DNA from: Candidatus Uhrbacteria bacterium RIFCSPHIGHO2_02_FULL_46_47
Lineage (GTDB): Bacteria > Patescibacteriota > Patescibacteriia > GWA2-47-26
NCBI GenBank assembly: GCA_001790815.1
Contig: MGDU01000005.1
Span: forward strand, 1-33,161
Length of the DNA stretch: 33,161 nucleotides
Direction: 5' to 3'
Shown here: positions 49 through 33,161 of the stretch, one piece after another
Layout of the letters: every line of letters starts with the position of its first letter
How positions within the stretch are numbered: the stretch's first letter is position 1
The notes under the pieces: model-generated
What the model saw: only the letters and a program-made list of their open reading frames with translations
Databases searched by the model: none
What the model was told of the DNA's origin: nothing
Translations under genes and position numbers: made by a program

Positions 49-1341
49 TCAAAAGCGTAGCTTTTGATTTAGCTCCATTATAGCATGAAACTCGTCAGGA
101 GTCAGGGAGGGTTTGCCAGTTTGTTCCTGTAACTTAAGCACTTGCTCGGGAGAGGCGCGACTAATCATGGTCTTGTGCACAATTTGAAAATACTCTTGGT
201 TAAGCGGCGATTTGCGCCAGGCCTCAATGCCTTGCGCGCGCCGCACAATTGATTCCTTTTGCAAAAACTCTATTTTAGAAACAATCTTTTGCGCGCGCTC
301 CTGCGAAGTCCCGGCCAGCCGCCTGAAATCTTCAAGGGTGAGGATTGCTAGTTCCTCAATCGGCCCCACAAATTTCGGCGCCATCCGCACATCGGTGACT
401 TTTGAAGAAGGGGTAGAACGTAGTATGTAGGACGTAGTGGAAGATGGTGTGGCAGGCGGGAGTACGGTTTTCATTGTAGTGACCTGGTCACGGGTTGCGC
501 CTGCGGCAGTGACCTGGTCACGAACAATATTTTTTACTGCATTCACTTGTGGCTCCTTTTTAGGAATTTCCACTTTTGGTTTTGGAATTTCCTTGGGAAT
601 TGGGATTTGTTTGGAAATTGGTAATTGGGATTTGTAAATTCCGCCGGTAAGGCGGCTATACCGCTCTTCCAACTCCTGCTCCTCTTTCTTTCTGCTTTCC
701 TCATCCCGCCTTCCCGCATCCTCTGCCTGTTTCTTTTTCCACTCCTCAATCCGCTTTGCTTCCAGCGCCTTCCATTTTCCCTGAAACTCCCCAAATGCTT
801 TCTCAATAATTTTCATCACCCGAATTACATCTAATTCGCTAATCTCTAATCCGCCAATTCGCTTATTCCGATTAAGCATCTCACGCGTCTCCAACGTATC
901 CCGCACATCCCGCAAACGCGATGACACAATAGTTCGAAACCGCTTTTGCAACAATGAATCGCCTCCAAAAAGCTGAGCTTCTGCCGCAGGCGCAACCCGA
1001 AGCTCAGCTTTGACATTTTCAATAACCCGATCAATCACTTCTTCCAACTCAACGCGCAAAGGATGCTCCTCATGCGAAACCGGAACCACAGATTTTTGAA
1101 CCACAGATGTTGGTAACACAGATTTCACAGATGATCTTTGTGTTATCTGTGCTGGTTGTATCTGTGGTTTTGCCTTCTCCATCTTCTCATATTCCTCCTG
1201 GCTAACCCCCTTCGGCAAATCAACAACTCCTAATTCCTGATTCCTAATTCCTAATTCATCTTTGCCATACGGCAAAAGCTCTTCCCCGCGCAGGATATAC
1301 CATTTTCCATCTTGTCCTTTAACTAAGATTTCATCATTCAT
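49..1341 (-). CDS. Conserved-hypothetical-type charged/coiled-coil protein; likely ATG at 1341 (the 1365 start in the track is TTG)
   Basis: Long ORF; ATGAATGATGAA (MNDEILVKGQDGKW) start; several repeat-derived low-complexity segments in the middle. Confidence 0.7.
   Translation of the reverse strand: MNDEILVKGQDGKWYILRGEELLPYGKDELGIRNQELGVVDLPKGVSQEEYEKMEKAKPQIQPAQITQRSSVKSVLPTSVVQKSVVPVSHEEHPLRVELEEVIDRVIENVKAELRVAPAAEAQLFGGDSLLQKRFRTIVSSRLRDVRDTLETREMLNRNKRIGGLEISELDVIRVMKIIEKAFGEFQGKWKALEAKRIEEWKKKQAEDAGRRDEESRKKEEQELEERYSRLTGGIYKSQLPISKQIPIPKEIPKPKVEIPKKEPQVNAVKNIVRDQVTAAGATRDQVTTMKTVLPPATPSSTTSYILRSTPSSKVTDVRMAPKFVGPIEELAILTLEDFRRLAGTSQERAQKIVSKIEFLQKESIVRRAQGIEAWRKSPLNQEYFQIVHKTMISRASPEQVLKLQEQTGKPSLTPDEFHAIMELNQKLRF
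479..521. repeat. Modular element: GTGACCTGGTCAC - GGGTTGCGCCTGCGGCA - GTGACCTGGTCAC
   Basis: 13-nt palindromic arms flank a 17-nt core; in-frame VRDQVTAAGATRDQVT. Confidence 0.9.
969..1011. repeat. Modular element: AAAGCTGAGCTTC - TGCCGCAGGCGCAACCC - GAAGCTCAGCTTT (core is the exact reverse complement of the 492-508 core)
   Basis: Same 13/17/13 architecture; in-frame KAELRVAPAAEAQLF. Confidence 0.9.
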
Positions 1342-1358
1342 AGTATTGTGGATAACTC

Positions 1359-1387
1359 TTGACAACTCCCCCTTTTAGTTGTATATT
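1359..1387 (+). promoter_or_regulatory. sigma70-like promoter: TTGACA (1359-1364), 17-nt spacer, TATATT (1382-1387)
   Basis: Near-consensus boxes with optimal spacing in an intergenic gap. Confidence 0.6.
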
Positions 1388-10162: not shown

Positions 10163-10197
10163 AAAGCTGAGCTTTGGTTGGGGAAAAGCTCAGCTTT
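10163..10197. repeat. Nested palindrome: AAAGCTGAGCTTT - ggttgggga - AAAGCTCAGCTTT
   Basis: Same arm as the element at 969-1011 with a different core. Confidence 0.75.
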
Positions 10198-10620: not shown

Positions 10621-10656
10621 CGTCCAAAAACGAGACGGCCGTCTCGTTTTTGGACG
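10621..10656. repeat. Perfect 36-nt palindrome centred on CGGCCG
   Basis: cgtccaaaaacgagacggccgtctcgtttttggacg. Confidence 0.95.
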
Positions 10657-11777: not shown

Positions 11778-14700
11778 CTACGGAGCTATGACGATATTCC
11801 CTGCAAATGGAGTCCAGGGATTATCTCCTCCAATTACTGGATTCACTTCATCACATTCTACATCAATACAGTTGGCTGCATCGTTAGCTAATCCGACATC
11901 TCCAGGACAGGTTCCATTGCAAAATCCCCAATTATCTACGACCTGAATTTTTGGATTGAAAACGCAACACCCACCATAGAGCGATTTAAAATCAGTGCTC
12001 GGACACGCAACTCCTGTTTCCCAATTCGGATCATCAGTGCCGGCGCAGGAGTATAAATGCTCCACAGTGTATGGCTCGGTTTGACACGCTCTTGAGCTTG
12101 TACCAAGTCCGTGAGTTGTGTCTTCTCGTTTGCATTCTGTAGTACCAGGGGCGGCCGCTTTGGCATTTTTATACAATCCATCCGCGCTTCCGGTAATATA
12201 GCCGTCGTCCCAATCAATTCGCATCCGGCGAATAGGCAAATGCTGATCCGCGGCAAAGGCAAAATATCGCGCGGTGGCCACTAAGAAACCATTGACGCCA
12301 ATGACTTGTGATCCCACAGCATACTCACCATTGATGGCCAGCGGTTCAGTCGCACTGCCCTGCGTTAAGGACGGCGCTGTGCCTATCGCGGCCCGAATCT
12401 GAGGCGCTCTTGCGCTACTACCAGAACCTGCTATTAGTCCGGTAGTATTAATTCCCATGCGGTTGTCCCATGTATTTCCTGCAAGAAAATACCATTTATT
12501 TGTCGTACTCCAGCCAAAGAGACCCCCCAAACCCGACGATTTGGCAAAAAGTTTTTCAAAACGTGCTATTCCACGAGTTACGGTTCCAACAGTTAAGGTT
12601 TCTTCGTCGCTTACCGGCAAAGGTGGGGTTTGTGGAGTAATTTCACCAGTTAAGTCTGAACCTGATGGTGCAAGATATTGCACTGCGCAGTCTTCTATAC
12701 CACCTTCACCCTCGGCATCCTCTATATCGGCGCAAGCCCAGGGCCAGCCGGCAAACGGCACTACATTTCCTGCCACATCAAGGGCAAACGAATCAAGCCG
12801 ATTATGATTCAAAAACCAGGGATTAGAATTTAAAGCAGTAGGCGGATCATTTTGTCCCAATGAGCTTGCAAAAGGCGTTGGCTGTTTATTTGAGAGATAA
12901 ATACTAGCGACACCATCTAGCAAACATCTCTCAATTCCGTTACCGCCTCCGCTTCCACTGGATCCGGCATCACCTGAACCGCACTGTGACCAAAGTTTTT
13001 CCGTATCCGGCGCGCTGGCGCGAGCTCCAAGGGCCTCATCAATTTTTGCAATATAGTCGCAGTGAGGATGATAATGAAAATTTACATCAAACTCAACAGG
13101 ATAGGAACCACCCCCCGTATTGCAAAGTGCTAGACGCAACCAAAGAAGTTTTTGAGTTTCATTATCAAAATTTAGGAGAACAAAAGCACCCTCGTATTGT
13201 TCAACACCCACATCATCCCATGTTCCATCTGCTTCACAGCTCACTGCACTGTTGCCATTATTCATAAGAGGAAAGCTGCTTTCATTTTTAAGCAAAGGAA
13301 TAATTTTATTGGTCATGACATGTTCATTCGCTTCATTAGGTCCGCGATCATTTCCGCTCTCTCCATCAAAATTATTATCCGCACCCCAAGCCCACCAAGC
13401 TTCCTCCGGATTAAAGCGCATATCAAACATGTAGAAAGCTTCATCACTAATCTCTACATCTCCGTCGGTGTGTTGAGCAGGAAAGGTTGCATTGTACGAA
13501 CCCTTCAAAATTCTTCCTGTCCCGGGATTAATACTAAACTCCCCATCCCGCTCGCTTGTATTACTCCCATTTTTTCCATTTACCCTAATCACAACTCTTT
13601 GAATATCATACCGATAAATATTCTTACTGCGCATGTCATAGGTTAAAGCGCGCAATTCTCCATCGCTGGTGCTTAACGCCCGAAACTCAATATCCTCTTT
13701 GATTCTTTCGAAAGAACTCTCCCCTCCCAACAAACAATAATATCTCCCATACGGCCCTTCAGCCAAACTGTCAGGATTGCCAACAGTATAGCTGGCCTGA
13801 ACCGCGCGGGCGTAAATATCCTGCTCAGAGGGCAATTGGTCAACCGGAAGCCATGTAAGACAAGGATAGGTCGTTTGATCGCCATTTAAGACAGAACGAT
13901 TTTGCGCCATATCATCCTCAAGACAATATCCGGCCAAGCCAATAACCGTGCGCGCGGCTCCTTTTGTTTGCCAGGTTCCTCCGGCGGTTTCGCACGCCAG
14001 TTTAGTGCTATTAAATGCCGGAAATCCAACACAGAGATTGTCCGGAATTTCAACTGAGCTTCCCGCGGTTCCGGCCAAAAGCGGGAAATAACGCGTCTCC
14101 CCGCCGTATTCAACTTTTTGATACTTGCATTCGCAGTTTGAAGAATCTGACAGTTCGCGCGCGTGTTCAGGTTCCACTTCGTTTTCACACAGCTTTATAT
14201 TTTCATAGCTTAGATTATTTTTTGTATTTTCCGTTTTTGGAAATGGGGAGGCGCGCTCCGGATAGGCACGGCAGAATTTTTCTTCCGAGTGCGTTGTATT
14301 GAAACTCACTCCATCAGGAGAAATCACGCATCGGCCATCCGCGGTACAATCCTGTGAACCCAGACATCCTCCTGCACCGCTCCCCGGCGTGCAAGGAGTG
14401 CTAAGTACATGAGCAAGCACGTATTTTGGAGCTTCTCGCGTACCAACATTTACTTCCTGAAGCTGATCAATCCGGTAAAGGTTGGCAATTGAGTAACCAG
14501 TATAGTCTTGTCCTGAAAAAGTACGGTCGCGCAAGCGATACATAGTTTCCTTAAGAATGCCTAACTCACAGCGGGAAGGCGAACCGCCAGAGGCGGGGTG
14601 CCAAATGCCGCCTAACTCTCCGCATTTTGCCGAATCGTTAATTGTACATCTCTGCGCCAGGCCATCCCAATCAAATCCGGCATTGGCGCATGAGGCGGGA

Positions 14701-17700
14701 TCAACTTGCGGCCGAAGATTTAAAAGCGGGCGCGGAACCCAAGAACCGCAGGTATTAATGGAAACGCTTCCTTCCTCCGGAGTTGCGGCCGAAGCATTAC
14801 AGCGGCCCAAAATATCGCATACCGTCTTAAACCGTCCAAGCTGATCATCATAGGTAAATCGCGCGGAGGCGCATTGGAACCACTCCGCGCAAACCCGATC
14901 ACGCTGAACTTTGAGCACCGTATTGGTGTTATTGGCCGCCCCTGCTCGGCATATTCCGCCGCCGCCTGTACATGCTGAGGAAAGAACTTGCCCAACTCCT
15001 GCTCCGCTTGCGACACAAACTTTTCCATGCTGGGTTCCTCCTACACAAATAGTTTCCTGAGAAGAAACGGTATTGACCAGCGCGCCTCTTTGCGCGTCGC
15101 TTAAGAAATAGGTTTGCTCCGCGCTCCAAAGTTTTGACGGATTTTCTTTGTTGTCAAATAAAACACATCCTTGCGCGCGCGAAACTTGTCCTTTGCAGGC
15201 CGAGCGCGCATCAATGAGCCGCGTGTTGTCTTTAAGGTAATAGGTTTTGCCAACTCCATTTACATCAACATCCGTAGGATCAGTAAGCGCGGTACAGGTT
15301 GCCTGCGGAGCCGGACAGGCCCCGGCTTTGCCGCCATAGCTTGGATCGGCGTTTTGCCAAAGTCCAAAGGTCGTGCCGCCAATTAAGTAGGTGTTTATCA
15401 CATCAACTTTAACGCGCGGCCGCACATCTCCGCCCGGAGCACCTTCAAGATCTTCAACCGTAACCGCGCCATAGCAGGGCGTTTCAGCTTCGCACTGTCC
15501 AGTTGTGGGAGTAAGTTGTTTCCATTTTCCGCCCGCGCCTTTGGTGCAGGTTTCCACATTGCAATCAACCCCGCCGCATTCTCCGGGATCAAGTGTATTT
15601 CCACCCGGATCAACGCAGGTGCCGGTTACAAAATTCCACGCGCCAAATCCTTGACACTCTTCTTTGGTATTAAAATATATTACGGCAAGAGTTGCGGGAT
15701 CAGTATCAGTGGCTCCATCTACCACGGGCTGTTTTTGCGCTCTAAACCACCCCAGATAAGTGCCGGCGCCAATTGCCACATTTGTTTTCCACTCGCATCC
15801 GGAAGCGCCGGGATTTTTAAAGTAGGCCGGACTGTTGTCTGAGCGCGTCCAGGCCTCGCACCCTCCGGCTTCAAACGTACAAAGCGTTTCATTGTACTTG
15901 TTTGGATTATTGATGCGGCGCAGAGTGATATCCGGCGCAGACTCTGCGGCAAACGCAGTACATCCTTTTTGTTTTTCATTGCAAGCTTTGGCAGAGGCCT
16001 TGTCAATGACCACAAAGCGATGAAGGTCATTTGGAACTGTCCAATCATCAACTGTTAAATTAAGATTATATGAGCAATAAGTCTCATCTGTTCCAATGTC
16101 ACAAACATTTATACTATTAACAAAACAGTCACCCGGCGCGCCGCGACAGATGCCGGAATTGGTGGTATTGAATTGTTGACTATACTGAGAATCCAAACCG
16201 CGCGTGTCAATCAAATCCGTACAGCCCACAGCTTCCTTGCGGCAAAGCGAAGAGAAGGATTTTAGATATTGCGGCGGCGTACCGGCACGATCTTTGTACT
16301 CGCGACAACCCAGCATTGCTCCGCGCAAATATCCTCCGCCGGCTTCAGAGGAAAGCGTATCGCAAGAAGCCGGAATTCTTGATGAGTTTTTCACCAGATA
16401 AACCGTGTCGCGGACTTCGCGTAAAATCACATCATCAAGATAAAAAGTCGCGGTTGATCCGCTCACATTGCGGAAAAGAAGTTTTGGATCATTTAGATAA
16501 TTGCAAGTTGAGGTGCCTTGAGGAATTGTACAGCGCACCTCGCCTCCAATTGAACAGGGAGTAGAGGCAGTAACAGTAACTGCGCCGGTAGAAGGACAGG
16601 GCAAAATATCAGCTTGAGCAACAGTTGAGAGTGCTAATGGTCCTAATTCAAATCTTTGCCAATCCGGAGTAAGCGCTACTGCGCCGAGAGCTCCGCCGAA
16701 AATATCTTCCGGTGCGCCAGTTCCGCCATGGTTTTTTAGGAGCGCGCGCAGTTTGCTTCCCGCAGTGCCTTTGGCATTGAAGGAAACAAAGTAATTGCCT
16801 CCGGGAGTAAGGAGCGGGGAAGCCCCAGTCGGATTATTCAATCTCCTATCCGTGCCGCCATCATTTGGCACACTGCCGTTTTTGAGCGAATGCCCTTGCA
16901 CTGTAAGCGCCTCACTGGAATATTCACCGTAAAGGGAAGGCCAGCCAATTGTGCTAAGCGGAGTGGTAATAGATTCAAAATCTTCGCTAAATACTTGCGC
17001 GATATTTGATCCTGTATTTCCCTTAAATCCGCGACAACCGTTAAGAGCCGCAGAGCATCCTTTGGAAAGTGACGGCGCGCCAAGATAAAGACATTGCTTA
17101 AGTATTCCATCCCATGAACCATGCGAAGCCAAGCAAGCTGTTTCTTCCAATCGCAAACGCAAAGCATCAGGTGTTTCTCCAGTTTTTGGCGCAATTTCCG
17201 GCAGGCGCGGCAGTCCAGTCCAGCGGAAGCTTTGACACTCATCAGTGGAGATAATCGTGCGGCTTAAGAAACGATTAAAGATATTGCCATTTGCGTCATA
17301 AAATGCGCGGCAATCAGTGCGCTCCTCAGGAGTCAGATCTGAATCCGGGGCAGGATCGCAAATAGCTTGATTAGTTCCTGCGTCTGTTGCAGTATTGTCT
17401 TCACAATTAACAGTAACAATGCCGCCGGTCGTAGTGGGAGGAGTTACTGAATAATTCGTACAAGGCGGTATTGCAGGGCCAGCAGTAAAGGTTTTAATCA
17501 AGTCGTTACCGGCGCTATACGAACGGTTAGATCGCTTAAAGCTCCAGGTTTTAAGTTGATACCCGGTTGTATCTGATCCTTCCCAAGTAAAGTAGGTTTG
17601 AGAATCAGGCGCGGGAACTTGACAAGCGCGCAAATCTGAATAGTATTGTCTTTGCTCGGTGCGCAAATTGGTAAATTCTTCACAGCCGTCATTTTCCGCG

Positions 17701-20639
17701 TTGCAGACAGTAGATTTTTGTGGAATAATCGGATACAAATCCTCTTGCGGAGTTGGCGGAGTTGTAGGCCAAAGACGATCAAGATCAGCAGTGGAAAGTT
17801 TTGTCTGCAAAGCCACGCGCGTAAAGGCCGGTTCAAACTTGGAAGGCAGTTTCAAATATGTATCATAACCAACGCATTCGCCCGGACATTTGTCCAGGGC
17901 AGTGGCAATGGCGGAAATAGGGCTTAGCCCTGCGGCAGGGCTAAGCCCTGAAGGCGTGTATAATTCGCACCCAACTTCTTCGCCTCGGCAGTAGCGCGTA
18001 TAACCTTCACAAAGAGAATTTTGATTGGCTTCACCAGTACAGCCAAGGTAATCCGGCGGAATGCGGTAATATGATTTTTTAATCTCAGTTGTAGTACCAT
18101 AACCTTCACGATAATTTGTGGCCTGCGCACCTGCTTCAAGTTGGACTGCGTCAGCATAAATATCAATAAGGATAGTTGAACTGCCACTTCGTAAAAGAAA
18201 AACTTGCGCTTTTACTGCATTTTGTGGCGCAGTAAATCGGCAAGAGCGACGAACATAACTTGTTGTATTTCCTGCCTCAGTTGAAGGTGCAAATTCAAGT
18301 AGGGCGTCATTACCTGGTGTTGTTAAAGTACAAGTAGTATCTGCGCTACTCAAGTCAATCAAACTACTACTCTCGGTTGAGAGCCTAACAAGTGCATGTG
18401 CACGTTCAGTAATATCACTCCCTCCTTTGGCTGACAAAGAAATTGCATAGGTTAAACCGCCTTGAATAGGAATATTAGCTTGATGAACTGCACCTGAAGA
18501 AAGTTTTATTGCGCCTCTGCCTTCAAATGATTGCGCTCCATCTGAAGACCATTGCCCAGCAGCTACTACATCTAGCCAATCATCCGGCGCGCCTGTTGGA
18601 GCAACATCATCCTTTTCAAACCCGGGATTTTTAATAAGATTTGGCGCCGGAGACGAGATAAATTCCGTACAGCCCTCATTTGTTGCGTCGCATTTTGGAG
18701 CATCGCGATCAAGATAAAGCCGCGAAGAGTTTGGATCCCACGTGCCGGCAGGAGTTTGCGCGGTAAGTAGCGCTGTGCATCCGGCGTTTTCCGCATTGCA
18801 TGAACCAAAGTCCACGGTATTTTCCAAAATTGAAACCACACTTCCTTCTTTTGGCGTAAACGTATCGCAACTCGCGTATTGCTTATCGCAAGTATCCGCG
18901 TCAAACCGCCAAGTATTTCTCTCGCGCGTGCAATATCCCCAAGCTTGGCATCCTCCCTGATTATCCTCGGCCACGCAGTGTTTCAAATCCGCGCAGGTAT
19001 CTTGCCGACCGCTTTGCAATCCGTCCAGGCTGGCGCCGGAGACAATCGCGCCGCAGGTTGCTGGAGGCGCGTCAAGAACCCAATTTGGATCAACCAGTCC
19101 GCAAAAACGATCTTCCGCAGGATCAGCGGTTTTTCCTTGGCATCCGGGACTGTCTCCTTCTTTGGTATAGCCGTCAAGCACGTCGCCAAACGTTGCAGTG
19201 GATACAGTGGATGCAGTGGATGCGTCCTGTAAAATCCTTTGCGCGGCAAATTCCCAACCCAGCGGAATGATACGCAATAATCGAAGTTTCTTAAGTGATG
19301 AATTAGGATAGGCAGTTAAATAGTCTCCTTCATTTGGTGTTCCTTCATTAGCAGGACTGATATATCCAAACGGCCGGTTGCGTTCAAGATACCCTTTTTG
19401 CACTGCCTCAGAAACTGTAAGCGGCGTCCCGGCAAGCGCTTGTTGAATCGCGGCCATAAACTTAGTGTCAATGGTGCATTGAAACTGCGTGGCAAATTTT
19501 TGTTCATTAATACCTGTAGGACAAGAGCCAAGTTCAGTTACATAATCAAAACCGCCATTGCTTACCCGAATTTGGGGGGTAAGGAGCGAAGCAACAACTG
19601 GCGAAAGTCCGGGCGCAACCGCGACTCCAGCCGATGGCGACGGCCCGCCTACTTCACTGGCTAGATTGGGAAAAGTAGTTGGCTCGTCAGAAACCAGTCC
19701 GGCCATAATAGACTTAAGCACGCGGGAAATCAGGGTGTTGGTAAAGGTTGACAAAATTGTCGTGCCAACCGCAGACCAAACCGCGCCTGAACGCGAACCA
19801 ATAAGACCGCTTGTAATATCGCCTGTTGTAATATTATTGCCACCTTTTTCTTTGGCAAGTTCGTCAAATTTTGATTTTATCGCCGTAGATGGCGTGGTAA
19901 TATTGCCTGAAATAATCCCGCTTTGCGGCAAAATCCCTTCGCTTTCCTTGCGTTTATTCGCCGCTTCTTCTTTTTTGCGCTTAATGACAATGCGAAATTC
20001 TTCATTCGCTTTAAAGGCCTGGCCAAGATCAGTATTATCCGAATCAAATGAGAGCGAAGCGTGCTTGAGCAGTTCTTCTGAACTGGTCAATTGCCGCGAA
20101 AAATTTTGCCAATTGCCAAGGGTTTGGACAAAATCGCATTTTGGCTTTGGCCTTTGAAACCGCTCAGCAAGACCAAGCGCGATAGAAAGGGCAATATTGG
20201 GAAGCGCTGGACCACACAGACTAAATCCAAGATCGCCCCAAATCGGATTTTCTGCAAGCGTGCCAATAAATTCTCCAGCGCCATCATAAGCCACAGAGGT
20301 AAGATAAGTTCCCCAATCTTCCCTTTCAAAACAGGCATTTTCGCCTTTGCAACCCGAAGCTAGTCCAACAGCCAAATCATAGGCAAGCTGTTGACCCATT
20401 AATGTTACTGTATTAACCAGCCCCATTAGAGCTGAAGCCCAAAGTGCGTCCCATACACCAAATTCAATGTTTTCTTTAATTTCTTGCGTAGCATATATAG
20501 CAACTGGCGAAACAGGCGCTTCTTCTGTCGGAATAGCAAAAACTGGCCGCGGCGCAAATACCGTTGCGACAACAAAAACAAAAGAAAAACAGACGAGCAG
20601 GGCTGAAATAGTAATGCGACGAGCAAAACGACTAAGCAT
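11778..20639 (-). CDS. Giant secreted Cys-rich surface protein (2953 aa)
   Basis: Signal peptide (ISALLVCFSFVFVVATVFAPRPVFA); many C-x(n)-GC-x2-[FYL] motifs; CBM-like NLIKNPGFE segments; PKD-like WDDG near the C-terminus. Confidence 0.85.
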   Translation of the reverse strand: MLSRFARRITISALLVCFSFVFVVATVFAPRPVFAIPTEEAPVSPVAIYATQEIKENIEFGVWDALWASALMGLVNTVTLMGQQLAYDLAVGLASGCKGENACFEREDWGTYLTSVAYDGAGEFIGTLAENPIWGDLGFSLCGPALPNIALSIALGLAERFQRPKPKCDFVQTLGNWQNFSRQLTSSEELLKHASLSFDSDNTDLGQAFKANEEFRIVIKRKKEEAANKRKESEGILPQSGIISGNITTPSTAIKSKFDELAKEKGGNNITTGDITSGLIGSRSGAVWSAVGTTILSTFTNTLISRVLKSIMAGLVSDEPTTFPNLASEVGGPSPSAGVAVAPGLSPVVASLLTPQIRVSNGGFDYVTELGSCPTGINEQKFATQFQCTIDTKFMAAIQQALAGTPLTVSEAVQKGYLERNRPFGYISPANEGTPNEGDYLTAYPNSSLKKLRLLRIIPLGWEFAAQRILQDASTASTVSTATFGDVLDGYTKEGDSPGCQGKTADPAEDRFCGLVDPNWVLDAPPATCGAIVSGASLDGLQSGRQDTCADLKHCVAEDNQGGCQAWGYCTRERNTWRFDADTCDKQYASCDTFTPKEGSVVSILENTVDFGSCNAENAGCTALLTAQTPAGTWDPNSSRLYLDRDAPKCDATNEGCTEFISSPAPNLIKNPGFEKDDVAPTGAPDDWLDVVAAGQWSSDGAQSFEGRGAIKLSSGAVHQANIPIQGGLTYAISLSAKGGSDITERAHALVRLSTESSSLIDLSSADTTCTLTTPGNDALLEFAPSTEAGNTTSYVRRSCRFTAPQNAVKAQVFLLRSGSSTILIDIYADAVQLEAGAQATNYREGYGTTTEIKKSYYRIPPDYLGCTGEANQNSLCEGYTRYCRGEEVGCELYTPSGLSPAAGLSPISAIATALDKCPGECVGYDTYLKLPSKFEPAFTRVALQTKLSTADLDRLWPTTPPTPQEDLYPIIPQKSTVCNAENDGCEEFTNLRTEQRQYYSDLRACQVPAPDSQTYFTWEGSDTTGYQLKTWSFKRSNRSYSAGNDLIKTFTAGPAIPPCTNYSVTPPTTTGGIVTVNCEDNTATDAGTNQAICDPAPDSDLTPEERTDCRAFYDANGNIFNRFLSRTIISTDECQSFRWTGLPRLPEIAPKTGETPDALRLRLEETACLASHGSWDGILKQCLYLGAPSLSKGCSAALNGCRGFKGNTGSNIAQVFSEDFESITTPLSTIGWPSLYGEYSSEALTVQGHSLKNGSVPNDGGTDRRLNNPTGASPLLTPGGNYFVSFNAKGTAGSKLRALLKNHGGTGAPEDIFGGALGAVALTPDWQRFELGPLALSTVAQADILPCPSTGAVTVTASTPCSIGGEVRCTIPQGTSTCNYLNDPKLLFRNVSGSTATFYLDDVILREVRDTVYLVKNSSRIPASCDTLSSEAGGGYLRGAMLGCREYKDRAGTPPQYLKSFSSLCRKEAVGCTDLIDTRGLDSQYSQQFNTTNSGICRGAPGDCFVNSINVCDIGTDETYCSYNLNLTVDDWTVPNDLHRFVVIDKASAKACNEKQKGCTAFAAESAPDITLRRINNPNKYNETLCTFEAGGCEAWTRSDNSPAYFKNPGASGCEWKTNVAIGAGTYLGWFRAQKQPVVDGATDTDPATLAVIYFNTKEECQGFGAWNFVTGTCVDPGGNTLDPGECGGVDCNVETCTKGAGGKWKQLTPTTGQCEAETPCYGAVTVEDLEGAPGGDVRPRVKVDVINTYLIGGTTFGLWQNADPSYGGKAGACPAPQATCTALTDPTDVDVNGVGKTYYLKDNTRLIDARSACKGQVSRAQGCVLFDNKENPSKLWSAEQTYFLSDAQRGALVNTVSSQETICVGGTQHGKVCVASGAGVGQVLSSACTGGGGICRAGAANNTNTVLKVQRDRVCAEWFQCASARFTYDDQLGRFKTVCDILGRCNASAATPEEGSVSINTCGSWVPRPLLNLRPQVDPASCANAGFDWDGLAQRCTINDSAKCGELGGIWHPASGGSPSRCELGILKETMYRLRDRTFSGQDYTGYSIANLYRIDQLQEVNVGTREAPKYVLAHVLSTPCTPGSGAGGCLGSQDCTADGRCVISPDGVSFNTTHSEEKFCRAYPERASPFPKTENTKNNLSYENIKLCENEVEPEHARELSDSSNCECKYQKVEYGGETRYFPLLAGTAGSSVEIPDNLCVGFPAFNSTKLACETAGGTWQTKGAARTVIGLAGYCLEDDMAQNRSVLNGDQTTYPCLTWLPVDQLPSEQDIYARAVQASYTVGNPDSLAEGPYGRYYCLLGGESSFERIKEDIEFRALSTSDGELRALTYDMRSKNIYRYDIQRVVIRVNGKNGSNTSERDGEFSINPGTGRILKGSYNATFPAQHTDGDVEISDEAFYMFDMRFNPEEAWWAWGADNNFDGESGNDRGPNEANEHVMTNKIIPLLKNESSFPLMNNGNSAVSCEADGTWDDVGVEQYEGAFVLLNFDNETQKLLWLRLALCNTGGGSYPVEFDVNFHYHPHCDYIAKIDEALGARASAPDTEKLWSQCGSGDAGSSGSGGGNGIERCLLDGVASIYLSNKQPTPFASSLGQNDPPTALNSNPWFLNHNRLDSFALDVAGNVVPFAGWPWACADIEDAEGEGGIEDCAVQYLAPSGSDLTGEITPQTPPLPVSDEETLTVGTVTRGIARFEKLFAKSSGLGGLFGWSTTNKWYFLAGNTWDNRMGINTTGLIAGSGSSARAPQIRAAIGTAPSLTQGSATEPLAINGEYAVGSQVIGVNGFLVATARYFAFAADQHLPIRRMRIDWDDGYITGSADGLYKNAKAAAPGTTECKREDTTHGLGTSSRACQTEPYTVEHLYSCAGTDDPNWETGVACPSTDFKSLYGGCCVFNPKIQVVDNWGFCNGTCPGDVGLANDAANCIDVECDEVNPVIGGDNPWTPFAGNIVIAP
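17919..17949. repeat. Perfect 31-nt odd palindrome inside the giant gene: GGGCTTAGCCC-TGCGGCA-GGGCTAAGCCC
   Basis: Encodes in-frame SGLSPAAGLSP. Confidence 0.9.
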
Positions 20640-21115: not shown

Positions 21116-21901
21116 TCATTTCTTATTCACATCTTTCAACGTCTCCTGATATAATTTCACAATCTGTTCGTCAGTAAATTTTGCCAGCAGATTTTTATCA
21201 ATCCCGCCTTGCAAAAGCAGATCGCGAATTGCTTGCGGTGAGGGATTTTTCGGAAGCTCCTCAATTTGCGGCTCTTGATTTTGAGGGCCGCTCACCGGGG
21301 CAATGCCGCTTTGAGCGGCCGCTTGTTCAAACATTTTTCTCAGTGCCGCATCATCAAACTGGCTTAAGACATCTTCAGATACTCCTGCTTGCCGCAAAAA
21401 ATTTCGTATTGAGGCAGGATCGCTAAATCCCGGTACCCCTATCTTTTCAAGCTTGGCCGTAATTGATGTCTGATAAAGACTTTTGGTAATTTCGTTTTGT
21501 TCAGTTTCGCGCGCGGACGGAAGCGCCAGCGCGCGGCAATCAGTACCTTTGGGACAATTAGGATCTGTCCCTGCTTCAATCTCTGCCTTATCAATTATAC
21601 CGTCAGAATCAGTGTCTTCCAAAAAAGGGCTGGTGCGATAAATTTGAAGCTCTTGCGCATCCGGAATTCCGTCGCGATCAGTATCTTTGGTGGAGGTAAA
21701 AAGTTCCTCCTCCGCAGTTCTGCTTTGCGAAAGCGATTTAAGCTCATCTGCGCTTAAAAGATGAAATGGCGCGCGCAAACGCTCCGGAAAAGTAGACATT
21801 GCCAGCGCAAATGTTCCCAGCCCCAATACAATAACCGCACCAAACCCGGCGGCTATTATCCATGGCTTTTGCTTCTTCATAGTAGCATTATTATGATGCA
21901 A
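21116..21901 (-). CDS. Single-TM protein with DxDxDG calcium-binding (thrombospondin type-3-like) repeats
   Basis: TKDTDRDGIPDAQE, LEDTDSDGIIDKAEIEAGTDP; TM near the N-terminus. Confidence 0.8.
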   Translation of the reverse strand: MHHNNATMKKQKPWIIAAGFGAVIVLGLGTFALAMSTFPERLRAPFHLLSADELKSLSQSRTAEEELFTSTKDTDRDGIPDAQELQIYRTSPFLEDTDSDGIIDKAEIEAGTDPNCPKGTDCRALALPSARETEQNEITKSLYQTSITAKLEKIGVPGFSDPASIRNFLRQAGVSEDVLSQFDDAALRKMFEQAAAQSGIAPVSGPQNQEPQIEELPKNPSPQAIRDLLLQGGIDKNLLAKFTDEQIVKLYQETLKDVNKK

Positions 21902-21995
21902 ATCTACAAATCTAATGCTAATCCTCGAATTGCGAATCTATTTGCTATTTGTAGATTGGCATGAAATTCGTATATTGGCATTATATACCAGTATA

Positions 21996-23012
21996 TCAAA
22001 GCAAACGCGCAAGCGCAATCCAATTTTCCACGCTTAACTCCTGGGGGCGCGCCCGCGCGGAAAGACCTGCGCGTTTCAAGGCCTCAAATACCTTGTCCCG
22101 AGGCATTTTCAGACCGGCAGAGAGGTTATTTTGAAGCTGTTTTCTGCGGCTTGAAAACCCAATTCGGACGATTTGAAACAGGTGTTTCTCAAAGTTATGA
22201 GTTGATGGAGCGCCGGGGACGCCTCTCTTTTTGTCTTGGGCAAAAAGAGAAGTGTCCCCTAGCTCAATTCTCAAAATCGCAGAATCCACCTCCGGCTCTG
22301 GCCAAAACGCACTGCGCTCCACATACGCTACAATCTCGGGCTTACCAAAGTATTGTACTGCCACCGAAAGGATTGACATCCCCTCACCCTTTTTCCCTCT
22401 CCCTAAAGGAAAGGGCACGGAATCAATTCCCTCTCCCCGTGTGGGAGAGGGTGGCCGCAGGCCGGGTGAGGGGCTTGCGCATACCCTTTGCGCCACTTCT
22501 TTTTGCACCATCACCACAATGAGTTCTGGCTTAGGTTCTTGCTCGGTAAACTTCCTAAGCACCGCCGAGGTGATGGAGTACGGAAGATTAGCTACAACTT
22601 TATAAGGCGTCCCCTCACCCTCCCCTCTCCCCAAGGGAGAGGGTGGCCGCAGGCCGGGTGAGGGAGGATGGGTGGGGTTATGCAACATCTCCACTAGTTT
22701 CTTATTTGGAATTTTCAAAATATCGCCAAGCACTATATCCGCATTTTTATAAAGCGCAAGCAATTCGGTTGCCGCGCGATACATCTTTTGGTCAACTTCC
22801 ACTGCAACTACCTGTTTTACCTTTTGTGCCAGCTCTTGCGTAAGCGCTCCCAACCCCGGCCCAACCTCCACCACGCAGTCATCCGCGTTCAGCTTCGCGG
22901 CATCCACTACCATTCGCGTAATTCGCGCGTCAACAACAAAATTCTGTCCGAATTTTTTACTCGGCCTAATACTATATTTATCGCACAATGATTTAATTTC
23001 ATCTATTTTCAT
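21996..23012 (-). CDS. rsmA: 16S rRNA dimethyladenosine transferase RsmA/KsgA with two in-frame repeat insertions
   Basis: KKFGQNFVVD, VEVGPGLGALTQEL, VVANLPYSITS, ELIVVMVQKEVAQR; MKIDEI start at 23012. Confidence 0.9.
   Translation of the reverse strand: MKIDEIKSLCDKYSIRPSKKFGQNFVVDARITRMVVDAAKLNADDCVVEVGPGLGALTQELAQKVKQVVAVEVDQKMYRAATELLALYKNADIVLGDILKIPNKKLVEMLHNPTHPPSPGLRPPSPLGRGEGEGTPYKVVANLPYSITSAVLRKFTEQEPKPELIVVMVQKEVAQRVCASPSPGLRPPSPTRGEGIDSVPFPLGRGKKGEGMSILSVAVQYFGKPEIVAYVERSAFWPEPEVDSAILRIELGDTSLFAQDKKRGVPGAPSTHNFEKHLFQIVRIGFSSRRKQLQNNLSAGLKMPRDKVFEALKRAGLSARARPQELSVENWIALARLL
22380..22473. repeat. CCCTCACC palindromic repeat inside rsmA (copy 1)
   Basis: ccctcaccc...ccctctcc...gggagaggg...gggtgagggg; encodes ASPSPGLRPPSPTRGEGIDSVPFPLGRGKKGEG. 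Confidence 0.9.
22611..22665. repeat. CCCTCACC palindromic repeat inside rsmA (copy 2)
   Basis: cccctcaccctcccctctccccaagggagagggtggccgcaggccgggtgaggg; encodes PPSPGLRPPSPLGRGEGEG. Confidence 0.9.
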
Positions 23013-24958: not shown

Positions 24959-26716
<1,758 letters not shown>

Positions 26717-26720
<4 letters not shown>

Positions 26721-26998
26721 ATTATTATTCCCATTATGTCTGATTCCTCCAAAATAAGATATTCTTTTCCTTCGACCTTGACTTCATCCGGGCTATACTT
26801 TTTAAACATCACTGTATCGCCCACTTTTACATCCATAGGCGCGCGCTGGCCATTATCCATTAGTTTGCCTGGCCCACAAGCAATAACCTTGCCCTTTTCC
26901 GACTTTTCTTTATCTGCCGTTGCCGGCAAGATGATTCCTCCCTTTATCTCTTCCTTAATGGGTTCCACAAGAACCCGATTTGAAAGCGGTTTAAGCAT
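26717..26998 (-). CDS. groES: Co-chaperonin GroES
   Basis: MLKPLSNRVLVEPIKEEIKGGIILPATADKEK...GDTVMFKKYSPDEVKVEGKEYLILEESDIMGII. Confidence 0.97.
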
Positions 26999-27005
26999 AT
27001 ACTTG

Positions 27006-27096
27006 TGATACGAATCTACAAATGTTACGCGAATCTACCAATATACGAATTCGCATATTCGTTGATTCGTTCGAAATTCGCTGATTCGTATCGTAT
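27006..27096. repeat. Second copy of the AT-rich palindromic repeat, upstream of groES
   Basis: tgatacgaatctacaaat...gaatctaccaatatacgaattcgcatattcgttgattcg...ctgattcgtatcg. Confidence 0.85.
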
Positions 27097-27179: not shown

Positions 27180-28637
27180 TCAAGAGGCCGGCTTTGTGGG
27201 GTTTGTGGATAAACCAAGGACACTCCAGAAAAGCAGGGCACCAAACGGTAATGTCCACAGATAATGATCAAAAACTAAGAGTATGTAGAAAGTAGTAAGT
27301 AGTATGTAGTTTGGTGATTGACGCCAGAGAATATATAGTACAAATATAAACAACGCTAGGCCAACCACCCCTAACTCTGCCCACACAAGGAGTGGCACAC
27401 TATGCACGGGTTGGTAGCTATAGAGTGGATCATTTGGGCGCAGATCACGGCGTACGGCTTGCGTGTAGTTTCCAATCCCCACTCCGGCAACCGGATGCTT
27501 TTTAATTAGCGTCCACGCTTCACGCAATCCTTCCATTCTTTCCGCGCGCGACTTAACTTCCAGACGCGCGTCCCCCGCAACCCGCGCGCCTATAAGCGGG
27601 CGATATAGGAATGCAAGTATGAATATGTAGAATATAGTAAGTAGTATGTAGGGGTTTGTCACTCTAAAACGTTGCGGATGATTTGATGCGGCCGCACGCT
27701 TTTCTCCGCACCATAAAAAGACCAGTAGAAGCAAAGTTGCGAACCATGCCGCGCGAGAAAAAGTAAAAAAAATACCAGTGAGTAAAACAGGGATAGCAAC
27801 CCTGATGGCTACCTGACAAAATACAGTGCGGCCGCACTGTATTTTGTCAGGTAATGTTTTGTTGATTTTTCGCCATACAATAAACACAACCGCCAATGCC
27901 ACTGCTAAATACCCTCCCAGCACATTGGGATGCGGCAGTCCGCCATAGGCGCGTAGCCAGCGCTCCGTCCCAAACTCCACAACTGAAGTACCCAACGCGC
28001 GCGGATCATGAAGCGCCATACCTAGAAGGGTTGATGCAAAACTAGATTGGGTGAGAAATTGATAAATGCCAAGCCCGGCTTGTACGACTGCGCCAATGAT
28101 AAAAGCCCACATCACACCCTCACCCTGCCCTCTCCCATGAAGGGAGAGGGAACTTGTTTTTACTTCCTCTCCCCTTGCGGGAGAGGATTGAGGTGAGGGG
28201 TTACGCAATATCAAATACAACAGTACTCCCTCCAATAATACTAACGCACCTTGCAGTGCTACCGCGCGATCCGGAGACCAGAGCATGGAGAGAAATGCCC
28301 AGCCAGCAAACGTCATCCCGAGCACAGCGAGGGATCTCGCGCGCATGTGTGATCGCGATATAGCAATATAACAATATAGCAATATTACAATCCACCCTAC
28401 AATCTCAATCCCATACACCGAAAGCGTGCCATACTCATAAAACGGCACTTCCCGAATAATATACCTTGTCTGCAAAGGCAATAAAAAAAAGAAAAGCATT
28501 AACCCCCACCTTCTCCCCCTTAGGGTAAGGCCCGCTTCGCCCGCAAAGCGAGGCGAGGGGAGGGAGAGGGGGTTACGCCACCGTTGCCAATCGCGCCTCG
28601 TACTCTTTTCGATATTGCTCTCGTTTGTCATGGTCAT
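27180..28637 (-). CDS. O-antigen ligase-like (Wzy/WaaL) polytopic membrane protein; true start may be MLFFFLLPLQ downstream of the annotated start
   Basis: SMLWSPDRAVALQGALVLLEGVLLYLILRN, FFTFSRAAWFA, HPVAGVGIGNYTQA, HSVPLLVWAELGVVGL. Confidence 0.8.
   Translation of the reverse strand: MTMTNESNIEKSTRRDWQRWRNPLSLPSPRFAGEAGLTLRGRRWGLMLFFFLLPLQTRYIIREVPFYEYGTLSVYGIEIVGWIVILLYCYIAISRSHMRARSLAVLGMTFAGWAFLSMLWSPDRAVALQGALVLLEGVLLYLILRNPSPQSSPARGEEVKTSSLSLHGRGQGEGVMWAFIIGAVVQAGLGIYQFLTQSSFASTLLGMALHDPRALGTSVVEFGTERWLRAYGGLPHPNVLGGYLAVALAVVFIVWRKINKTLPDKIQCGRTVFCQVAIRVAIPVLLTGIFFTFSRAAWFATLLLLVFLWCGEKRAAASNHPQRFRVTNPYILLTIFYIFILAFLYRPLIGARVAGDARLEVKSRAERMEGLREAWTLIKKHPVAGVGIGNYTQAVRRDLRPNDPLYSYQPVHSVPLLVWAELGVVGLALFIFVLYILWRQSPNYILLTTFYILLVFDHYLWTLPFGALLFWSVLGLSTNPTKPAS
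27810..27853. repeat. Perfect 44-nt palindrome centred on GCGGCCGC inside the ligase-like gene
   Basis: tacctgacaaaatacagtgcggccgcactgtattttgtcaggta; encodes LPDKIQCGRTVFCQV in frame. Confidence 0.95.
28116..28200. repeat. CCCTCACC palindromic repeat inside the ligase-like gene
   Basis: ccctcaccctgccctctcccatgaagggagaggg...cctctccccttgcgggagaggattgaggtgagggg. Confidence 0.85.
28501..28575. repeat. Related CCCCACC.../...GGGAGGGAGAGGGGG repeat at the gene junction
   Basis: Inverted C-rich/G-rich arms at the ligase N-terminus / nucleotidyltransferase stop. Confidence 0.65.
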
Positions 28638-32280: not shown

Positions 32281-32967
32281 CTATCTCTTATGCTCTATCA
32301 TGATATCATGAAATAATTTTTCCTGCTTCACCTCCACAATCCTTTGCTTGCACAATTCCAATAGCGCCAGGAAGCTCACGATAATTTCGGTTTTTTCTTT
32401 TGAAGAACCCACAAAATGCTTAAACGACATCATAGCTTTTTCCACAATCATGGCTTTGAGCCGATCAATGCGCTCGCCAATTGAAATCGCCTTGAGCACG
32501 ATTTTTTTGGGAATGCGCACCAGTGGCTCCAACGCCTTGATCACTGCCAAAAATGTTTCGTGCAAAACATTTACCGTAACTTTTTGTGGCGGACGAAATA
32601 CGCGCTCCACCGGCATTTTTTCCCTAAAGTAGACAAAATTGCCTTGCTTAATTATGGCTTCAATTTGGCGCGAAGCATCATGATAGAGTTTCAAAATCTT
32701 CAATTGTGCTTCCAACGGTACGCCATCATCTTCTACTTCCAAATTGGGAAACAGCGCTTGCGATTTTATAAGCAAAAGTTTTGAAGCGACCAGCAAAAAA
32801 TCCGCCACCTCTTCCGGGGGCAATTTCGCCTCCTGCACGTATTTCAAAAAGTCCTCGGCAATTTTTGCCAAAGACACGGTGGTAATATTCAGCTTCTCCC
32901 CTTCAATCATGGAAAGTAGCAAATCCAACGGCCCTTCAAATTGTTGTGATTTCACGGCAAACGACAT
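32281..32967 (-). CDS. scpA: Segregation and condensation protein A
   Basis: FEGPLDLLLSMIEGEKLNITTVSLAKIAEDFLKYV...FLLVASKLLLIKSQALFP; start MSFAVK at 32967. Confidence 0.93.
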   Translation of the reverse strand: MSFAVKSQQFEGPLDLLLSMIEGEKLNITTVSLAKIAEDFLKYVQEAKLPPEEVADFLLVASKLLLIKSQALFPNLEVEDDGVPLEAQLKILKLYHDASRQIEAIIKQGNFVYFREKMPVERVFRPPQKVTVNVLHETFLAVIKALEPLVRIPKKIVLKAISIGERIDRLKAMIVEKAMMSFKHFVGSSKEKTEIIVSFLALLELCKQRIVEVKQEKLFHDIMIEHKR

Positions 32968-32974
32968 AAAATAT

Positions 32975-33060
32975 AATGCCAATTTACAAATGTCATTCAA
33001 ATCTACAAATACGAATTCGCAATTTGTAGATTGGCATAAGATTCGTAGATTTGCATTGCA
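32975..33060. repeat. AT-rich palindromic repeat upstream of scpA
   Basis: caaatctacaaatacgaattcgcaatttgtagattggcataagattcgtagatttgca. Confidence 0.7.
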
Positions 33061-33161
33061 CTCTATTGTACCAAACCCCGCCGCCCTTGACAAAGAGAGA
33101 ATGTTCCCGCCCGCGCGTCTCACGACCAGGGCGGCTCTTTTTTTTATTTCCCCTCACCCTC

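Follow-up and report, generated by a model that had tools for sequence, protein, structure and literature searches.

Two palindromic elements within one gene

The window, by which we mean the whole 33,161-nucleotide stretch of DNA analysed, contains two palindromic elements (479 and 969, named for their first positions) within a single open reading frame. This host ORF has no match in Pfam or NCBIfam, and its orthologs are found, at about 46-53% identity, in both same-family genomes used for comparison, G001 (Parcubacteria group bacterium GW2011_GWA2_47_26) and G002; the organism's own genome is G000. An Rfam search of the window gave no match. The relevant features are as follows.

49..1365, minus strand: host ORF, 438 aa, carrying the 479 and 969 elements
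479..491, plus strand: left arm GTGACCTGGTCAC, a REP of the GTGRCC class; the same arm class borders and interrupts the G001 RAYT gene
492..508, plus strand: 17-nt core GGGTTGCGCCTGCGGCA
509..521, plus strand: right arm GTGACCTGGTCAC of the 479 element
969..981, plus strand: left arm AAAGCTGAGCTTC, a REP of the AAGCT class; the same class borders and interrupts the organism's own RAYT-A gene (contig C10)
982..998, minus strand: 17-nt core, as at 492..508, in opposite orientation
999..1011, plus strand: right arm GAAGCTCAGCTTT of the 969 element
10163..10197, plus strand: further AAGCT-class doublet, AAAGCTGAGCTTT GGTTGGGGA AAAGCTCAGCTTT
17919..17949, plus strand: GGGCT-class doublet, AGGGCTTAGCCCT GCGGC AGGGCTAAGCCCT

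The letters at 479-521 and 969-1011 read exactly as originally predicted, with a 13/17/13 layout, a core at 969 that is the reverse complement of that at 479, and both elements in frame within ORF 49-1365(-). The core has two perfect matches in the window and occurs nowhere else in it, against 0.15 expected when up to three mismatches are allowed. The description of the arms as 13-nt odd palindromes is accurate for the 479 element; those of the 969 element are perfect over 11 nt only (AAGCTGAGCTT), their outermost A/C pair being unmatched. The 479 arms are direct copies, leaving the centre base mismatched in the hairpin, and the 969 arms are perfect inverted copies. For DNA and RNA alike, the predicted minimum is one long hairpin in which the two arms pair and the core forms a small stem of its own; z lies between about -3.3 and -4.0 for the two elements, and the earlier proposal of a cloverleaf was rejected on these grounds. 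The GGGCT doublet is also read in frame (SGLSPAAGLSPI), inside the 2953-aa ORF 11778-20639(-).

Repeats of other kinds were observed in the window. A perfect 44-bp palindrome (TACCTGACAAAATACAGTGCGGCCGCACTGTATTTTGTCAGGTA, 27810-27853) inside ORF 27180-28637, an O-antigen-ligase-like gene, may represent another class of intragenic repeat. The inverted repeat GGGGACGCCTCTCTTTTTG/CAAAAAGAGAAGTGTCCCC (22215-22259) lies inside the rsmA (ksgA) gene, which encodes 379 aa and matches its model in two stretches, so that an in-frame insert seems to be present. AT-rich inverted repeats with units like ACGAATCTACAAAT occur at 21896-21962, 26630-26721, 27007-27092, and 32966-33066, and a 36-bp perfect palindrome (CGTCCAAAAACGAGACGG/CCGTCTCGTTTTTGGACG, 10621-10656) is perhaps a two-way terminator.

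Families of dispersed doublets

Stretches covering about 71% of the genome (~726 kb) were scanned for the arrangement palindrome - loop - inverted palindrome, and pattern searches were run genome-wide. The first 346 kb yielded 21 arm-loop-arm elements, against 0, 1, and 0 in first-order Markov sequence. The full 726 kb holds 59 doublets, 382 kb of G001 holds 17, and 343 kb of G002 holds 8; second-order Markov sequence gave none for any of the three. The main arm classes in the organism's own genome, which take in most of its doublets, are AAGCTSAGCTT (20), GGGCTWAGCCC (15), and CACTSAGTG (6), followed by AGGACWGTCCT (5) and TGRCCWGGYCA (5). Genome-wide pattern searches recovered 19 AAGCT doublets and 5 of the GTGRCC class; reversing the patterns gave no matches.

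As in REPINs, the elements consist of two palindromic REPs in inverted orientation that form a hairpin, and are dispersed through the genome in many copies. The GTAG/GTGG tetranucleotide that tags REPs 5' of the palindrome is not a feature of these arms, occurring at 4 of 130 positions on the outer side and 5 of 130 on the inner, and location is not extragenic: 42 of 52 REP-type doublets in G000 and 9 of 12 in G001 fall within ORFs of at least 150 aa. The former figure also excludes terminators as an explanation for most copies. Column counts for a conserved 5' tag (AATCC, TCCG) gave weak preferences only, and no such tag is therefore claimed. Two identical AAGCT doublets with loop GAGCGTGAA lie 200 bp apart within one ORF (L115:4007-4242; contig C18:44007-44242), and are probably part of a tandem protein repeat.

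Combinations of cores and arms

The core occurs elsewhere in the genome, as the original prediction had anticipated: four exact copies and one with a single mismatch were found in all, those outside the window being C16:29591 and C23:507 (exact) and C20:33556 (one mismatch). All three of these have GTGRCC arms, making the 479 element the usual form and the 969 element the odd one. With the three copies in G001, the tally for both genomes (n=8) is seven GTGRCC and one AAGCT, and an identical core is thus combined with two unrelated arm types. Two further loops each recur with different arm classes, GAGCGTGA with AAGCT, GGGCT and, in G001, GTGAC arms, and CGTTGCAACG with AAGCT and GAGACC arms.

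Loop pairs sharing at least 8 nt across arm classes number 16, where two kinds of control averaged 0.7 and never exceeded 4, and all 16 trace to three loops (the 17-nt core, GAGCGTGA, and CGTTGCAACG). As these pairs are not independent of one another, and CGTTGCAACG is itself palindromic and could have recurred by convergence, the 17-nt core makes the strongest case. Its combination with AAGCT arms is represented by one example (969), in which the exchange is exact at both arm/core borders. Together with the two other loops, the core with its two arm types supports a modular relation between cores and arms. What the data show is that cores and arms occur in different combinations; movement as modules would be a further step. 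No element was found with arms of two different classes (one mixed-class pair of neighbors is not a doublet), and no arm switch in situ, with the loop retained at an orthologous locus, was seen.

Insertion into genes and orthologous sites

Like Rickettsia palindromic elements (RPEs), the doublets are inserted in frame into coding genes. Depending on the gene, translation of the GTGRCC+core element gives either RDQVTAAGATRDQVT or VARPLPQAQPVAWPR, and this use of different reading frames indicates that a DNA element has been copied, rather than a peptide motif. The host ORF orthologs in G001 and G002 lack both the 479 and the 969 segments, so the segments are not conserved at the protein level and the sites are empty in both relatives; two reading frames and orthologs without the segments together exclude peptide-level conservation. 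The G001 ortholog carries a core element of its own at another place.

Across 44 comparisons of elements with orthologs, many sites are shorter by at least 8 residues, that is, empty. A different hairpin (stem of at least 9 bp) occupies the ortholog site in 11 of the 44, compared with 28 of 765 control windows in the same ORFs, which fits the re-use of tolerant loops by different element families. The clearest case is L119:1216 (GGGCT arms) versus L131:18085 in G001 (GTGAC arms), where arms and loop both differ at the same site, arguing for repeated insertion in tolerant loops.

Two other hairpin families were noted during these comparisons. In G001, a hairpin CTAATTTTG...CAAAATTTAG with flanking extensions (L136:11924-13234, L130:14530-16392, and L131:12851-14749) is found at sites that hold CACTG, AGGAC, or GGGCT doublets in G000. 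A longer palindromic family of about 95 nt, CCTTACCTTAAGG...CCTTAAGRTAAGG within ATAACCC..GGGTTAT, is common to G000 (L018:5915, L118:446, L125:6312, and L121:6824) and G002 (L152:657, L156:19222, and L157:6974), with several copies inside genes whose orthologs are empty.

RAYT genes and their REPs

The genome encodes three Y1_Tnp proteins, and palindromic repeats lie at the borders of all three genes. An AAGCT-class arm precedes RAYT-A (C10), which contains an in-frame AAGCT doublet (GSSASVASTEAELP) and is followed by another just past the stop codon. At RAYT-B (C25), CAGGGCTWAGCCCTG arms are found on both sides of the gene and within it (VQGLALS), and RAYT-C (C27) is surrounded by classic GTAG REPs. 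The Y1_Tnp domain scores over the PF01797 cut-off and contains the HUH motif (MPNHFH/MPNHYH). RAYT-A and RAYT-B, the larger two of these RAYT-type genes, score 33.6 and 47 bits against NCBIfam NF047646 (REP-associated tyrosine transposase), under its cut-off of 80, and a search of solved structures with the RAYT gave no match at E 0.01.

A RAYT gene bordered by the same REP is thus present in the organism's own genome for the AAGCT and GGGCT classes. That of the GTGRCC class is found in the relative G001 only, and with no RAYT of its own the class may be inactive here. The G001 RAYT, which appears to be truncated at the N-terminus, is syntenic with RAYT-B, both adjoining an S8 peptidase gene. 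Its GTGRCC-class (GTGRCY) arms flank the gene on both sides and interrupt it at the protein site that holds the internal arms of RAYT-B. In two genera belonging to one family, this syntenic RAYT locus is associated with different sets of REPs. The 479 arms belong to the class of the G001 RAYT's REP, and the 969 arms are the REP of the organism's own RAYT-A; the arms of the two elements are REPs of two different RAYT-type transposase families, a relation missing from the original prediction, as was their membership of large repeat families.

With a profile built on the three RAYTs, relatives were identified in 50 of the 246 genomes of the class. At about 20 of 51 examined loci, a loop word of 12-30 nt matches the gene's own flank (a first count of 23 included a few low-complexity or short words, which are not relied on), whereas words shared with flanks of other loci are at most 14 nt. 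The word occupies a variable loop that follows the YLRF helix and precedes PLVxIxxFCLMPNHFH, thus lying upstream of the HUH motif, and it differs by lineage (for example, TGTCCAACACTTAGTGTTGGACA in L082 and ATGTACGAGGTTCGACCTCGTACATTT in L068). Given 42 in-gene doublets in 71% of the genome and ~1000 genes, a number assumed from the size of the genome, the rate of near 40% among RAYTs is far above the general one. This may reflect local hopping into a loop that tolerates inserts, or a function of the internal copy.

Discussion

The REP classes found at the flanks and in the interiors of RAYT genes indicate that the elements are REPIN-like and non-autonomous. We consider it probable that the 479 and 969 elements are mobile elements of this kind, mobilized by RAYTs, that landed in frame and whose loop can be combined with more than one REP class. 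Two short inverted REP palindromes around a loop would form a hairpin in single-stranded DNA, and a cognate Y1 (HUH) transposase of RAYT type, which we infer to be the mobilizing enzyme, would recognize, cut, and copy it. The 479 element would have used the GTGRCC class, with its cognate RAYT in G001, and the 969 element the AAGCT arms of RAYT-A, both landing in tolerant linkers of the host gene. The simplest route to an arm switch would be replacement of the REP arms on an existing element, by a RAYT or by recombination.

Palindromes provoke template switching, and it is possible, though on present evidence the less likely course, that the elements are mobile and their loops came to be shared when palindromes underwent such switching or ordinary homologous recombination, without a role for RAYTs in arm exchange. 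In keeping with this, a single REP family is known to have spacers of several types (PMC3733652). However, the sequences of AAGCT and GTGRCC arms share no useful identity, and exchange driven by homology does not predict the exact arm/core borders of the 969 element.

Alternatively, the hairpins may be selected features of the host, either RNA structures that control how mRNAs are translated or degraded, or DNA sites bound by a chromosomal protein, in which case the arms would be protein-binding sites and their association with RAYTs incidental. The strong RNA hairpins, the resemblance of the perfect short palindromes to dimer-binding sites, and the way in which inverted arms vary yet stay complementary (GTGACCAAGCCAC/GTGGCTTGGTCAC in G001) are in keeping with this. 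It is nonetheless improbable, as most orthologous sites are either empty or occupied by unrelated sequence or repeats, different arm classes coexist within one genome, and it is specifically at the borders of RAYT genes that the arm sequences recur. Convergence, whereby tolerant protein loops gather self-complementary in-frame inserts and the 17-nt identity arises from coincidence or coding constraint, might account for short loops such as CGTTGCAACG and is hardly credible for 17 identical or nearly identical nucleotides in eight elements of two genera, with two reading frames in use and 16 loop pairs shared across classes where controls gave no more than 4.

The nearest kinds to these RAYT-associated elements are REPINs, REPtrons, and TIR-bordered RAYTs (PMC3116915, PMC3733652, PMC6006769, PMC8266576). 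REPINs and BIMEs with their RAYT (TnpA-REP), described from Pseudomonas and enterobacteria (PMC3116915), share the inverted pairs of short palindromes that form a hairpin, the many copies, and the cognate Y1 gene bordered by the same REP. In contrast, the present elements lack the GTAG tag, have arms of 11-15 nt that are mostly perfect palindromes, and lie mostly in frame within genes, while REPINs and BIMEs are extragenic; the REP is also found inside the transposase gene, and one loop is combined with two REP classes. By analogy, they would work like REPINs while lying outside the GTAG superfamily, having no tag and being mostly intragenic.

TIR-bordered RAYTs (TIRYT/TIRtron) and TnpA-Y1 subclass 2.6 with its atypical hairpins have been described mainly from Acidobacteria, Stenotrophomonas, and Bacteroidetes. 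In these, too, the repeats at the borders of the Y1 gene are of a non-GTAG type, are partly self-complementary, and have further copies in the genome; the excerpts of these accounts make no mention of internal repeat copies in a fixed gene loop (PMC3733652, PMC6006769). RPEs and intragenic REPs, as described in PMC3733652, resemble the present elements as in-frame palindromic repeats in many genes, with dimers common and sometimes the same gene site occupied in two species. CGTC repeats, including RPE-4 and RPE-6, are presented in the same paper as having no transposase partner, whereas partner transposase genes are identified here. Intragenic REPs, like multiple spacers per REP family, are thus already on record there. 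In the small sample of literature searched, neither one spacer common to unrelated REP classes nor a lineage-specific own REP in a fixed RAYT loop was found, and nothing relevant joined RAYTs or REPs with Patescibacteria.

The analysis places REPIN-like elements in the conserved genes of a Patescibacteria genome of 1 Mb and finds many RAYT genes with an internal copy of their own REP. The natural chimeras of arm and loop offer a means to ask how a RAYT recognizes its REP. It is interesting, if rather speculative, to consider that RAYTs of this group keep their own REP in a fixed loop just upstream of the HUH motif, and that from one lineage to another a new palindrome is adopted by all copies together, whether upstream, internal, downstream, or dispersed, with loops and insertion sites left in place. 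If true, the internal REP would be a functional address (target, template, or autoregulator) by which the transposase stays matched to its REP, and switched arms on old elements, as in 969 versus 479, would be the visible trace of such a change.
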